Of a DNA stretch of 64,000 nt, positions 15,670-21,401 are shown piece by piece. Position numbers and translations under genes: made by a program. How positions within the stretch are numbered: position 1 is the stretch's first letter; the number at the start of each line of letters is the position of its first letter. Source of the stretch: Acetobacteraceae bacterium (GTDB lineage Bacteria > Pseudomonadota > Alphaproteobacteria > Acetobacterales > Acetobacteraceae); NCBI GenBank assembly GCA_031291795.1, contig JARLIJ010000272.1, forward strand, positions 1 through 64,000, given 5' to 3'. The notes under the pieces are model-generated. The model did no database searches. It saw nothing but the letters and a program-made list of their open reading frames with translations, and was not told where the DNA came from.

Positions 15670-15744
15670 CGCGCGTAGCGTCCCTGCGGGTTGCACCGGC
15701 GGCGGCGCCGAATTACAGCACCGGCAACAGGTGGAGACCCAAGG

Positions 15745-16911
15745 ATGGACCAGGCGTTGCTCGTCGAACCGCATACCGAGATCCGGGAGGAGGTGAAGAA
15801 GCTCTGCGCCCGGTTCCCCGGTGAATACTGGCGCAAGCTGGACGAGCAGCGGGCCTACCCCACCGAATTCGTGCGCGCGCTGACCGAAGCGGGCTATCTC
15901 GGCGCACTGATCCCCGAGGAATACGGCGGCGCGGGCCTGACGCTGTCGGCCGCCGCGGCGATCCTGGAGACGGTGCAGGCCGAGGGCTGCAACGGCGCCG
16001 CCTGCCACGCGCAGATGTACATCATGGGCACGATCCTGCGGCACGGCAACGACGCGCAGAAGCAGGCCTACCTGCCGAAGATCGCCACCGGGGAGCTGCG
16101 CCTGCAGGCGTTCGGCGTCACCGAACCGACCAGCGGCACCGACACCACCAGCCTGCGCACCTTCGCGAAGCGCGAGGGCGATCATTACGTGGTTAACGGC
16201 CAGAAAGTGTGGACCAGCCGCGCGGAGCACTCCGACCTGATGCTGCTGCTGGCGCGCACCACGCCAAAGGACCAGGTGGCCAAGCGCACCGACGGGCTGT
16301 CGACCTTCATCGTCGACATGCAGGCGAGCCTCGGCAAGGGCCTGACCATCCGGCCGATTCGCACCATGATGAACCACAACTCGACCGAAGTGTTCTTCGA
16401 TAACATGGTCGTCCCCGCCGAGAACCTGGTCGGCGTCGAAGGCCGCGGGTTCCGCTACATCCTGGACGGCATGAACGCCGAACGGCTGCTGATCGCGGCC
16501 GAATGCATCGGCGACGCGAAATGGTTTCTGGAGAAAGCGACTGCCTACGCGCGCGACCGGGTCGTGTTCGGCCGCCCGATCGGGCAGAACCAGGGCATCC
16601 AGTTCCCGCTCGCCCGCGCCTATGCGCAGATGCGCGCGGCCGAACTGATGGTGCAGGCGGGGCTTGCGAAGTTCGAAGCCGGCCAGACCCCCGGCGAGGA
16701 AGCCAACATGGCAAAGATGCTCGCCGCCGAGGCGTCCTGGGCCGCCGGCGAGGCCTGCATCCAGACCCATGGCGGCTTCGGCTTCGCCGAAGAATACGAC
16801 ATCGAGCGCAAGTTCCGCGAGACGCGGCTGTACCAGGTGGCCCCGATCAGCACCAACCTGATCCTCTCCTACCTCGCCGAACACGTGCTCGGACTGCCGC
16901 GGAGCTACTGA
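15745..16911 (+). CDS. Acyl-CoA dehydrogenase
   Basis: 388 aa from ATG 15745 (MDQALLVEPHTEIREEVKKL). FAD-dependent alpha,beta-dehydrogenation of an acyl-CoA. LQAFGVTEPTSGTDTTSLRT is the flavin/substrate motif, and YVVNGQKVWTSRAEHSDLML the beta-domain signature. VVFGRPIGQNQGIQFPLA and the C-terminal QTHGGFGFAEEYDIERKFRE are typical. The catalytic base aligned to Glu in short-chain enzymes lies in the E-Y-D-I-E segment. The chain-length specificity is not readable. The CaiB-type CoA-transferase about 900 bp downstream may act in the same acyl-CoA pathway. Confidence 0.92.
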   Translation: MDQALLVEPHTEIREEVKKLCARFPGEYWRKLDEQRAYPTEFVRALTEAGYLGALIPEEYGGAGLTLSAAAAILETVQAEGCNGAACHAQMYIMGTILRHGNDAQKQAYLPKIATGELRLQAFGVTEPTSGTDTTSLRTFAKREGDHYVVNGQKVWTSRAEHSDLMLLLARTTPKDQVAKRTDGLSTFIVDMQASLGKGLTIRPIRTMMNHNSTEVFFDNMVVPAENLVGVEGRGFRYILDGMNAERLLIAAECIGDAKWFLEKATAYARDRVVFGRPIGQNQGIQFPLARAYAQMRAAELMVQAGLAKFEAGQTPGEEANMAKMLAAEASWAAGEACIQTHGGFGFAEEYDIERKFRETRLYQVAPISTNLILSYLAEHVLGLPRSY

Positions 16912-17076
16912 CGAGCGCCTGGACCGACCGGACGCACGTTCGGGGCCGGGGAGCGGGTCCCGAGCCGTGCGAACGGTGTGTGTCGCGTGCCCCGGTTGTC
17001 GGAAATCCTTACATCTGTGTTCCAGCGTCCGGCGACGTGGCCGCATAACCTCCTGATTTCCGTAGATGCTATTTTG

Positions 17077-17092
17077 TGGCATCGGAATTGCA
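17077..17092 (+). promoter_or_regulatory. Predicted sigma-54 (RpoN) promoter upstream of PEP-CTERM gene
   Basis: TGGCATCGGAATTGCA matches the -24/-12 consensus TGGCACG-N4-TTGCW with the invariant GG and GC dinucleotides exactly 10 bases apart. It lies 60 bp before the start codon, which would give a leader of roughly 50 nt. PEP-CTERM genes in several proteobacteria are controlled by RpoN with the PrsK/PrsR two-component pair. Neither regulator is in the window. Confidence 0.55.
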
Positions 17093-17152
17093 TTCGTTTC
17101 TGGCAAGTTGGCTGGCTTGTAAATGCCTTCAGGCATCCCGGAGAACACGGAT

Positions 17153-17710
17153 ATGTCCAAAACGCTGTGGATGGGTACGGCAGTCGTTGTGTCGTTGCTG
17201 AGTGTCCAGGCCGCTCAGGCTGATGTGTTCACGTTCGACCCGTTGGCCTCTTACGGTCCGCCCACACTCTATTCGCTGGCCGAAAATGCGGGGTCGAACG
17301 AGACGGCGACGGTCAACATCGTTGGCTACTCCTTCGATGCATCGCGCCTGGGCAATTACGTTGTTCTGGACTCCCCAGGTGTCATCAGCGACTCGGTGTA
17401 TATCAGCAACACCTACACCAGCAGCAATTACGGCCAGATCACTGTCACGTCCTATGAGGGCGAGCGTCCCGCGCTGGCGGATACTGATGTCGTCCTGGGA
17501 ACGGAAGACGGAACGAGTTCCTTCTTGATCGACCTCCTGCTGGCGGATGCCGGTGGTCTCGATCTGGGGTTTTACCTGTCCAGCGATACGGCAGGGCTCC
17601 CGCCGGGCGTCAGTGACCAGATCTCCCTCGAGGTGCCGGAGCCGGCTTCGCTGACGCTGATGGGCGTGGCCCTCGCCGGCCTGGGATTGATCCGCCGCCG
17701 CCATAGCTGA
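17153..17710 (+). CDS. PEP-CTERM sorting domain protein
   Basis: 185 aa from ATG 17153 with GGAGA 7 bases upstream. Signal peptide MSKTLWMGTAVVVSLLSVQA, then AQA cleavage. The middle is rich in Ser, Thr, Asn, Asp and Gly, as in secreted surface proteins. It ends in VPEPASLTLMGVALAGLGLI followed by RRRHS: PEP motif, membrane helix and Arg-rich tail, the three-part signal recognised by exosortase (EpsH/XrtA family). The product is probably exported and cleaved for release or attachment to an extracellular polymer. The exosortase gene is not in this window. The gene lies in a locally AT-richer stretch. Confidence 0.88.
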   Translation: MSKTLWMGTAVVVSLLSVQAAQADVFTFDPLASYGPPTLYSLAENAGSNETATVNIVGYSFDASRLGNYVVLDSPGVISDSVYISNTYTSSNYGQITVTSYEGERPALADTDVVLGTEDGTSSFLIDLLLADAGGLDLGFYLSSDTAGLPPGVSDQISLEVPEPASLTLMGVALAGLGLIRRRHS

Positions 17711-17809: not shown

Positions 17810-18946
17810 ATGACCGCGTCACGTCCCTTATCCGGCCTTCTTGTCGTCTCGCTCGAACAGGCCGTCGCCGCGCCGTATTGCAGTTCCCGCCTCGCGGATG
17901 CCGGCGCACGGGTCATCAAGATCGAGCGGCCGGAGGGCGATTTTGCGCGCGGTTACGATCGCGCCGCCCGCGGCCTGTCGAGCTATTTCGTGTGGCTCAA
18001 CCGCGGCAAGCAGAGCCTGGTCGCGGACATCAAGGCACCGGCCGATGCCGCGCTGCTGCACAGCATCCTCGCCCGCGCCGACGTGTTCATCCAGAACCTC
18101 GCGCCCGGTGCGGCGGTACGGTCCGGCTTCGGGTCGGACGCATTGCGCGCGCGCTATCCCCGGCTGATCACGGTCGATATCTCCGGCTACGGCGATACCG
18201 GCGAATACGCCACGATGAAGGCCTACGACCTGCTGGTGCAGGCGGAATCGGGCCTGGCGATGATCACCGGCCATCCCGCGGGGCCGGGGCGCGTCGGCGT
18301 TTCGGCCTGCGACATTGCCTGCGGCATGGCGGCCCATGCCGGCGTGCTGGAGGCGCTGATCGCCCGCGGCATCACCGGCCAGGGGAAGGGGCTGAAGGTC
18401 AGCCTGTTCGACGGCATGGCCGATTGGATGAACGTGCCGCTGCTGTTCTTCGAAGGCACCGGCAAGGCGCCTGAACGGCTGGGCCTGGCGCATCCGTCGA
18501 TCTGCCCGTACGGCGCGTTCCCGACCGCGGACGGTGCGCTGGTGCTGATCTCCATCCAGAACGAGCGCGAATGGGCTGAGTTCTGCGCCCGCTTCCTGGA
18601 CGAGACAGACCTGCCGCAGCGCGAGGGGTTCCAGACCAACGTCATCCGGGTGGCCAACCGCGCGATGGTGGATGCCCATGTGGGCACGATGTTTGCGCGG
18701 CTGACGCGGGATCAGGCAGCGGCCAAGCTGCGCGCCGCCGGCACTGCGTACGGGTTCGTCAACGACGTGGCGGCATTCTCGCACCATCCGGCGTTGCGCC
18801 GGATCGAGGTTGGCACACCGAACGGCCTGGTGTCGCTGGCCGCACCGCCGGTGATGATCTCCGACGGCCCGCGCGCACTTGGCCCGGTGCCGGCGATCGG
18901 GGAACATTCCGAGGCGATCCGGGCGGAGTTTGCAGGGGCGGCGTAG
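17810..18946 (+). CDS. CaiB/BaiF CoA-transferase family protein (class III)
   Basis: 378 aa. The N-terminus LSGLLVVSLEQAVAAPYCSS, ARVIKIERPEGDFARGYD and LNRGKQSLVADIK are family signatures. The catalytic Asp is expected in KAYDLLVQAESGLAMITG (about 137-154). It transfers CoA between carboxylic acids through a mixed anhydride. The substrate is not known; formyl-, succinyl- and mesaconyl-CoA-type transferases share this fold. It converges on the alpha-hydroxyacid dehydrogenase pair, with a hairpin repeat in between. Confidence 0.9.
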   Translation: MTASRPLSGLLVVSLEQAVAAPYCSSRLADAGARVIKIERPEGDFARGYDRAARGLSSYFVWLNRGKQSLVADIKAPADAALLHSILARADVFIQNLAPGAAVRSGFGSDALRARYPRLITVDISGYGDTGEYATMKAYDLLVQAESGLAMITGHPAGPGRVGVSACDIACGMAAHAGVLEALIARGITGQGKGLKVSLFDGMADWMNVPLLFFEGTGKAPERLGLAHPSICPYGAFPTADGALVLISIQNEREWAEFCARFLDETDLPQREGFQTNVIRVANRAMVDAHVGTMFARLTRDQAAAKLRAAGTAYGFVNDVAAFSHHPALRRIEVGTPNGLVSLAAPPVMISDGPRALGPVPAIGEHSEAIRAEFAGAA

Positions 18947-19031: not shown

Positions 19032-20213
19032 CTACCCCGCCAACCGATTCCGCTCGTAACCACCGAAGAAGATATCCGTGGAGATCTCATCCACCGAACG
19101 GCAGCCCGTATAGGCCATCGTCTTGTCCATCTCCGTCTTCAGGATGCCGATTGCCTGCGCCGCACCAGCCTCCCCGCCGGCTGCCGTCCCATACAGCGTT
19201 GCCCGCCCGGTCAGCACCGCCTTCGCCCCCAGCGCGAGTGCCTTGACGATGTCCGACCCGCGTCGAATGCCGGAATCCAGCAGCACCGTGGCCCGATCCC
19301 CGACCGCCTGGGCGATGTCCGGCAGCACTGCCAGCGTGGCGGCGGCGCTGTCCATGTTGCGCCCGCCATGGTTCGACACGATCAGCCCGTCCACGCCGTA
19401 GTTGACCGCTTTCAGCGCATCGTCCACCCGGTTGACGCCTTTCAGCATCAGCGTCCCCGGCCAGATGTCGCGGAAATGCGCGATGTCGGACCAGTTCAGC
19501 GAGTCGTGGTTCATCTCCTCCCGCCGTCCGGCCAGGCCGCTGACGATGGTGCCCTGGAACTGCGCCGGGTAGTTCTCGTGCTTAGGCATCCCACCGTTCG
19601 CGAGGTAGCGGCCCATCACGCCCAGCGTCCAGGACGGGTGGCGCGCGACGTCCAGCATGAACCGCGGCGAGGGATTGAACGGCAGCGCGAACCCGTTCCG
19701 CGCATTGTATTCCCGGTTGCCCGGCACGGCTGAATCGACCGTGACGATCAGCGCCTCGTAGCCCGCGCGCTTCGCCCGTTCGATCATCTCGTAGGACAGG
19801 TCGCGGCGTTTCCAGACATAGAGCTGGAACCACAATCTTCCGCCGAACTCCGTCAGCGTCTCCATCGCCGTCATCGACGTGGTGGACAGCGTCAGCGGCA
19901 CGCCGGCCTTGGCCGCTGCGCGTGCGAGTTGGACCTCGCCGCGATACCAGCACAGCCCGGCCGCCCCTGTTGGCGCGATCACCAGCGGCAGCGCGGCCGG
20001 CTTGCCGAACAGCGTGGTGGCCGTGGAGCGGCCGGAGACATCGACCAGCGCGCGATGGCGCAGCTTGATATCCTCGAACGCGGAGCGGTTTTCGTGCACC
20101 GCGATGTGGTCCTCGGTGGCGCGATCGACGAACTCGAACACGCCGCGCGGCAGGCGACGCTTCGCCGCCGCCCGCAGGTCGTGGATGTTGTAGCAACGAT
20201 CGAGTGCGGCCAT
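19032..20213 (-). CDS. FMN-dependent alpha-hydroxyacid dehydrogenase, copy 1
   Basis: 393 aa. Member of the lactate/mandelate dehydrogenase and glycolate oxidase family. LPLVIAPTGAAGLCWYRGEV is the FMN-binding N-terminal strand. LIVSNHGGRNMDSAAATLAV (about 278-297) carries the catalytic His and the Arg. VLLDSGIRRGSDIVKALALG and KAVLTGRATLYGTAAGGEAG bind FMN phosphate. It lies 3 bp behind a paralogue with the same N-terminus (MAALDRCYN), so the pair is a tandem duplication and surely cotranscribed. L-lactate dehydrogenase (LldD) is a plausible but unproven role. Confidence 0.9.
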   Translation of the reverse strand: MAALDRCYNIHDLRAAAKRRLPRGVFEFVDRATEDHIAVHENRSAFEDIKLRHRALVDVSGRSTATTLFGKPAALPLVIAPTGAAGLCWYRGEVQLARAAAKAGVPLTLSTTSMTAMETLTEFGGRLWFQLYVWKRRDLSYEMIERAKRAGYEALIVTVDSAVPGNREYNARNGFALPFNPSPRFMLDVARHPSWTLGVMGRYLANGGMPKHENYPAQFQGTIVSGLAGRREEMNHDSLNWSDIAHFRDIWPGTLMLKGVNRVDDALKAVNYGVDGLIVSNHGGRNMDSAAATLAVLPDIAQAVGDRATVLLDSGIRRGSDIVKALALGAKAVLTGRATLYGTAAGGEAGAAQAIGILKTEMDKTMAYTGCRSVDEISTDIFFGGYERNRLAG

Positions 20214-20216
20214 GGC

Positions 20217-21401
20217 TCAGTCCGCCATCATCCGATTGCGTTCGCGGTCGCCGAAGAAGATGTCGGTGGAGATTTCATCGACGCCGTTGCAGCCGGTATA
20301 GGCCATCGTCTTGTCCATCTCGGTCTTGATGATGGAGATGGCGTGCGATGCACCGGCCTCGCCGCCGACCGCGGTGCCGTACAGCGTGGCACGTCCGGTC
20401 AGCACGCATTTGGCCCCGAGCGCTGTGGCTTTGACGATGTCGGAGCCGCGGCGGACGCCGCTGTCGAGCAGCACGGTCGCGCGGTCGCCCACCGCCTCGG
20501 CGATCTCGGGGAGCATGTCGATGGTGGCGGCGGCGCTGTCCATGTTGCGCCCGCCGTGGTTGGACACGATCAGCCCGTCTACCCCGGCGCTGATCGCTTT
20601 CAGCGCGTCATCGACCCGGTTGATGCCCTTCAGCATCAGGATGCCCGGCCATTTGTCGCGGAAGATCTTGATGTCGTCCCAGTTCAGCGAGTCCTGGCGC
20701 ATCACTTCCCTGGTGTGTGCGTCGTTGCCGATCGGGCGGCGGTACGGTTCTGGATAGTTCTCGTTACGCGGCATGCCGATGGTGCGCAGGTATTTCATCA
20801 GCACCGTCGCGGCCCAGGTCGGGTGGCGCATGATGTCGATGGTGAAGCGCGCGGTGGGATGGAACGGCAGCAGGAAGCCGTTCTTGGCGTTGTACTCGCG
20901 GTTCGGCGGCACGATGGTATCCGTTGTGACGATCAGCGCCTCAAACCCGTTGTTCTTCGCCCGCTCGATCAACTGGTAGGACAGCTCGCGCTGTTTCCAG
21001 ACATAGAGCTGAAACCACAGCCGGAAATTCGCCTCCCTCGCGATCTTCTCCATCGCGGTCATGGCACCGGTCGCAAGCGTGAACGGGATCTTTGCCTTCG
21101 CTGCTGCCTTGGCGAGTTCCAACTCGCCTTCATGCCAGCACAGCCCGGCGGCGCCGGTGGGCGCAATGGCCATCGGCAGGGCGATCTCGCGGCCGAACAG
21201 CGTGGTCCGGGTGGAGCGGCCGGAGACATCGACCAGCGCGCGATGACGCAGCTTGATGCGCTCGAACCCGGCGCGGTTGTTGCGCAGCGCGACCTCGTCC
21301 TCGGTGGCGCGGTCGACGAACTCGAACACGCCGCGCGGCAGGCGGCGTTTCGCAGCCTCACGCAGGTCGAACACGTTATAACAACGATCCAATGCCGCCA
21401 T
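20217..21401 (-). CDS. FMN-dependent alpha-hydroxyacid dehydrogenase, copy 2
   Basis: 394 aa and first of the tandem pair. The same landmarks are present: LPMAIAPTGAAGLCWHEGEL, LIVSNHGGRNMDSAAATIDM with the catalytic His, and VLLDSGVRRGSDIVKATALG. The two copies are highly similar at both ends but differ in the middle segment (about residues 170-260), where substrate specificity and membrane association reside. They may therefore have diverged in substrate. It oxidises a 2-hydroxyacid to the 2-oxoacid. Confidence 0.9.
   Translation of the reverse strand: MAALDRCYNVFDLREAAKRRLPRGVFEFVDRATEDEVALRNNRAGFERIKLRHRALVDVSGRSTRTTLFGREIALPMAIAPTGAAGLCWHEGELELAKAAAKAKIPFTLATGAMTAMEKIAREANFRLWFQLYVWKQRELSYQLIERAKNNGFEALIVTTDTIVPPNREYNAKNGFLLPFHPTARFTIDIMRHPTWAATVLMKYLRTIGMPRNENYPEPYRRPIGNDAHTREVMRQDSLNWDDIKIFRDKWPGILMLKGINRVDDALKAISAGVDGLIVSNHGGRNMDSAAATIDMLPEIAEAVGDRATVLLDSGVRRGSDIVKATALGAKCVLTGRATLYGTAVGGEAGASHAISIIKTEMDKTMAYTGCNGVDEISTDIFFGDRERNRMMAD

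Follow-up and report, generated by a model that had tools for sequence, protein, structure and literature searches.

Haft, Paulsen, Ward and Selengut (2006; PMC1569441) described a two-part site that precedes 99 out of 167 PEP-CTERM genes from Proteobacteria. Motif 1, 17 nt long with TTTACA at its end, is followed by a spacer (mean 62.8 nt, SD 10.6, range 32-92) and then by a sigma-54 motif 2. The site is reported there to co-occur exactly with PrsR, PrsK and PrsT, and the genome set included the alphaproteobacterium Rhodospirillum rubrum. For pepA of Aquincola tertiaricarbonis RN12, RpoN dependence has been established by experiment and the transcription start mapped (PMC9850573); RpoN control of exosortase substrates is thus known elsewhere, as an earlier note on the DNA studied here had stated. 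That note also held that an instance here would extend such control to this lineage. It does add a member in the Acetobacteraceae, but the 2006 set already contained R. rubrum, which is of the same class.

The DNA analysed (the window, 64,000 nt) comes from a Rhodopila-like member of the Acetobacteraceae, whose draft genome (4.87 Mb, 417 contigs, 68.8% complete) was searched as a whole. A gene on the forward strand (17153-17710) encodes a protein of 185 residues; its ATG, at 17153, stands 9 nt downstream of a Shine-Dalgarno GGAG (17140-17143, forward strand). The product passes the cut-offs of PF07589 (26.9 bits, cut-off 20.7), TIGR02595 (20.9 bits, cut-off 16) and also the VPLPA-CTERM model TIGR03370, which bears out its earlier description as a textbook PEP-CTERM protein. 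The C-terminal sequence, VPEPASLTLMGVALAGLGLIRRRHS, consists of a PEP motif, a transmembrane helix and an Arg-rich end (profile match to residues 161-183, 17633-17701, forward strand), and a signal peptide of about residues 1-23 with an AQA-D end (MSKTLWMGTAVVVSLLSVQAAQA preceding the D) was read by inspection. Apart from these sorting signals the protein has no recognisable domain, and single-sequence structure prediction gave a pLDDT of 31. In a search for orthologues across 300 family genomes, essentially all that matched was the PEP-CTERM tail; leaving the tail aside, the best relatives over the full length reached 28-31% identity and none exceeded 31%. Promoter conservation was therefore assessed on PEP-CTERM genes that are paralogues in this genome or belong to other members of the family.

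Both neighbouring ORFs lie on the forward strand, outside the system, and were named by sequence reading. The 241-nt gap to the acyl-CoA dehydrogenase-like ORF upstream (15691-16911) is in keeping with the large intergenic regions reported for genes of this kind. Downstream, 99 nt separate the stop codon from a family III CoA-transferase-like ORF (17810-18946), a gap that suggests a single-gene transcript; an intrinsic terminator-like site was looked for 3' of the PEP-CTERM gene and none was found. Further along, on the reverse strand, two adjacent and clearly similar alpha-hydroxy-acid dehydrogenase-like ORFs (19032-20213 and 20217-21401, read by eye) are apparently a tandem duplication.

The predicted sigma-54 promoter (-24/-12, motif 2), TGGCATCGGAATTGCA, occupies 17077-17092 on the forward strand. 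It has one mismatch to TGGCAYRNNNNTTGCW, C for R at position 7, and is the sole site with at most one mismatch to that consensus within the 64-kb window. As the earlier note had it, the GG-N10-GC spacing is exact and the site ends 60 nt before the ATG. Transcription from sigma-54 promoters generally starts about 12 nt after the GC, which would place the start near 17103 (forward strand); no sigma-70-like site was seen in the promoter region. Separated from the TGG of the promoter by a 63-nt spacer is a 17-mer, TGTCGGAAATCCTTACA (16997-17013, forward strand), of a family found before other PEP-CTERM genes and corresponding to published motif 1; it ends in CTTACA, one base off the TTTACA of that motif. 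This putative PrsR-type enhancer box, overlooked in the earlier note, is the stronger evidence. Its assignment to PrsR is by correlation, and we found no demonstration in the literature of PrsR binding to motif 1; the form of motif 1 used here to call boxes was derived from the loci analysed.

Across the genome, the strict motif TGGCAYN5TTGCW occurs 19 times, against 8 for the reversed pattern and 4 for a pattern with one extra spacing base. Among the 12 PEP-CTERM matches (11 above cut-off, one below), a strict site lies 49-76 nt upstream of the start in four (contigs C95, which is the window, C298, C304 and C346), so that the motif does precede other PEP-CTERM genes, as the earlier note suggested checking; with uniform placement, about 0.004 strict sites would be expected in the 150 nt ahead of the 12 genes. 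A fifth gene, on C5, has a sigma-54 site with two mismatches. At these same five loci the promoter is accompanied by a box: TGTCGGAAATCCTTACA in the window, AGTCGGAAACCTTTACA with a spacer of 62 on C298, CGTCGGAATTTTTTACA with a spacer of 63 and a weaker -24/-12 on C5, GCTTCGAAGAATTTACA with a spacer of 42 on C346 and a degenerate GTAAAGTCCGATTTACG with a spacer of 63 on C304. The remaining strict sites outside nif-type genes lie before transporter-like and other ORFs, or within ORFs. One of the 12 matches (C159:4591-4668, L018; PF07589 above cut-off) is an ORF of low complexity, rich in Pro and Arg, that has no convincing signal peptide at its start; it is probably a false positive.

The arrangement recurs in relatives. 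Among 27 PEP-CTERM genes of other family members, picked by protein similarity alone, 17 have a sigma-54 site no more than two mismatches from consensus. A TTTAC/TTACA resembling the box accompanies 14 of these 17 sites, and in every one of the 14 a copy lies at a spacing of 50-53 or 62-64 nt. The combined pattern TTACA-N48-78-TGGCAYN5TTGCW gives 95 matches in 33 genus genomes versus 6 for its reversed form, and a PEP-CTERM gene follows the box-promoter pair in 21 of the 31 pairs inspected. Motif enrichment and enhancer box together argue for the earlier proposal that the predicted promoter serves the PEP-CTERM gene.

Some pairs stand before genes of another kind. In three genus genomes (L092, L096, L100) the box TGTCGGAAA(C/T)ATTTACA, 62 nt and a sigma-54 promoter precede a conserved membrane protein of 60-80 residues, located some 100-300 nt downstream of the composite box (..DDQ(S/T)GL.AV..LLGV.V...W..R.LP..V...L.AWIL.S.P.G.L.GH.CALSED); it lacks a PEP-CTERM tail, matches nothing in Pfam, and may belong to the PrsR regulon without being an exosortase substrate. 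At L076 a TGTCGGAGAATTTTACA box (spacer 63) and a sigma-54 site precede a secreted protein (MKPVTLAVAVALLGISVDANAG...NITWLRDANFA...). No PEP tail is obvious in its first reading frame; a frameshift may be present, or this may be a different kind of target.

The distances between box and promoter fall into steps. Of the 95 genus pairs, 62 are at 62-63 nt, 15 at 51-52 and four at 73-75, with hardly any between. A scan of 398 family genomes for spacers of 64-94 nt, set up to test the peaks expected near 73-74 and 84, placed 18 of 36 matches at 73-75 and few at 83-85, these matches being non-independent because a single genus contributes many of them. Once the 42 nt of C346 is added, successive classes differ by about 10.5-11 bp, one turn of DNA. 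The enhancer-promoter spacing thus appears quantised in units of the helical turn (about 42, 51-52, 62-63 and 73-75 nt), and the SD of 10.6 given for the spacer in the 2006 paper fits a mixture of such turn-stepped classes. We found no earlier report of helical-turn spacing at PEP-CTERM sites.

Between box and promoter lies a third element, which in the window is TAACCTCCTGATT (17046-17058, forward strand), 31 nt before the TGG. The core consensus for IHF is WATCAANNNNTTR, and the window element has one mismatch to the reverse-orientation form, YAANNNNTTGATW. A model-free column profile of the 60-63-nt class reads Y A A n n n A T T G A W W, again 31 nt before the TGG; in sequence this is the IHF core read in the reverse orientation, with both half-elements and the 4-nt gap included. 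Most genus promoters contain the element, in the general form YAANNNNTTGAWW, at this fixed position: 36 of 63 nonredundant promoters have it at -31 with no more than one mismatch, compared with at most three at any other offset, and shuffled spacers give far fewer IHF-like matches. Beyond the family, in other families of the Pseudomonadota, the element is present in 10 of 12 phylum matches at 61-63 nt, versus about one expected (at most two mismatches, within one base of the -31 offset). On C346, where the box is two turns closer, a perfect CAAGCCCTTGATT is found at 21 nt. The alpha subunit of IHF (ihfA) is encoded on C204 (131 bits versus 120.25).

We consider 17046-17058 a candidate IHF-binding site. 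The case for IHF is one of consensus matching, made next to A/T-rich flanks and with one core position differing in the window, and the element could instead be an intrinsic bend, a site for HU or for a second regulator, or part of an A/T-rich UP-like stretch. Such an origin seems rather unlikely in view of the fixed offset, the two half-elements with their 4-nt gap in a profile built without a model, and the ihfA gene in the genome; a position for IHF between enhancer and promoter is, moreover, the usual arrangement in sigma-54 systems (PMC7962754). The PEP-motif gene GSU1943 of Geobacter sulfurreducens, which is up about 3-fold rather than down in ihf mutants (PMC7962754), bears on both sides: it favours something other than IHF at -31, and it hints at an involvement of IHF, in a repressive direction, contrary to what a simple helper would do there. 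In the open-licence papers searched we found no description linking PEP-CTERM or exosortase systems with IHF; an earlier description elsewhere is possible. Overall, the PrsR-controlled exosortase-substrate promoters of the Pseudomonadota are probably three-part and helically phased, with the box, an IHF site at about -57 to -45, and the -24/-12 element, at spacings of 42, 52, 63 and 74 nt. If this architecture is true, surface-protein sorting regulons would in general require IHF bending as well, in addition to the two-part site of 2006.

All protein partners of such a promoter are encoded in the genome. PrsR (632 bits, cut-off 502.6), its kinase PrsK (571 bits, cut-off 300) and PrsT (571 bits, cut-off 312) adjoin each other on contig C114, at an XrtA exopolysaccharide locus. 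The same locus encodes an XrtA-type glycosyltransferase, an export protein, a chain-length determinant, a TIGR03016 protein and an ATPase, and a tyrosine autokinase slightly below cut-off (216 versus 230.65); EpsB2 is among the partners encoded in the genome. The exosortase gene is on the same contig as prsR and prsK (C114:20386-21129; PF09721, 210 bits), and RpoN is encoded on C103 (TIGR02395, 386 bits, cut-off 277). The PrsR-like protein whose absence the earlier note had regarded as telling against RpoN control is therefore present, as are the PrsK and exosortase genes it proposed to look for. The closest PrsR relatives found are 84-85% identical and come mostly from Acetobacteraceae/Rhodopila MAGs; one is from a MAG labelled Nitrosovibrio, a record that may be mislabelled. 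The lineage of the window genome follows from these relatives.

The genome also has sigma-54 promoters of another type. Further strict sites precede nifH, nifV and two hesB/iscA-like genes (named from translations; contigs C343 and C54; L035, L036, L037, L023), which is what a working RpoN regulon should show, and the organism is probably a diazotroph. At least two further NtrC-like proteins match TIGR02915 below cut-off. A real sigma-54 promoter in the window could thus answer to NtrC, NifA or another NtrC-type regulator, with nitrogen or something else as the cue in place of PrsK/PrsR. The nifH promoter and both hesB/iscA-like promoters, however, have a NifA-type TGT-N10-ACA 53-58 nt away, with no PrsR box close by; the window promoter lacks TGT-N10-ACA and has, at the published distance, a PrsR-type box in common with other PEP-CTERM genes. 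Control by another activator is for these reasons improbable. For nifV neither TGT-N10-ACA nor a close PrsR box was found, and TGT-N10-ACA is also present at two other sites, one of them inside the C304 spacer, so that the pattern by itself is unspecific. Finally, that the 16-mer is a chance match and the gene is driven by an unrecognised housekeeping promoter is hardly credible: the site is one mismatch from consensus and such sites stand at five of 12 PEP-CTERM matches, not all, but the strict motif is enriched before PEP-CTERM genes, a box is paired with it at 63 nt, the pair recurs genus- and family-wide, and the region offers no sigma-70-like site.

The window gene very probably encodes a substrate of an XrtA-type exosortase, transcribed alone from the sigma-54 promoter at 17077-17092 under a scheme of PrsK, PrsR, IHF and RpoN. 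For its first step we infer a phosphorelay, in which PrsK would sense a surface or exopolysaccharide-related signal and phosphorylate PrsR. PrsR would bind at 16997-17013, as suggested by the box, the presence of the regulator and the published correlation, and IHF would bind at 17046-17058 and bend the DNA. The bend, together with the integral-turn spacing of 63 nt, would bring the AAA+ domain of PrsR to the holoenzyme of RpoN at -24/-12; the holoenzyme would then open the promoter. The signal peptide would export the protein, the C-terminal helix and Arg cluster would hold it, and the exosortase encoded on C114 would, judging from its family, process it so that it is released to the cell surface or the exopolysaccharide.

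An orphan surface protein is in this way assigned to a defined regulon, PrsK-PrsR-RpoN, of Rhodopila-like Acetobacteraceae, for which we found no description in the literature. The phased spacing and the IHF-like site make targets findable in raw sequence, including those without a PEP-CTERM tail, and render the role of IHF and of the helical face directly testable.

Compared with the known systems, the locus is closest to the 2006 site as described in the text available to us: motif 1, a spacer of about 63 nt, the sigma-54 motif 2, a PEP-CTERM gene and a large intergenic region are all present, and the genome, like those of 2006, encodes PrsR, PrsK and PrsT. It differs in the CTTACA end of its box, and that text makes no mention of helical-turn spacing or of an IHF-like site. 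With the pepA promoter of Aquincola (PMC9850573) it shares a PEP-CTERM gene, a TGGCAC/-12 sigma-54 promoter and a predicted upstream enhancer, and both genomes have a PrsK/PrsR/EpsB2 locus. Aquincola, however, is a betaproteobacterium; RpoN dependence and the start are experimental for pepA and predicted for the window gene, whose product misses the PepA family cut-off (37 versus 80 bits, the tail only being matched). Promoters of the nifH type, which combine NifA, IHF and sigma-54, have the same order of enhancer, intervening IHF-like site and -24/-12 promoter, but their enhancer (TGT-N10-ACA) and activator are different. The window promoter is thus a further member of the known 2006 site, and the phased spacing and IHF-like site refine that class as a whole, not this gene alone.
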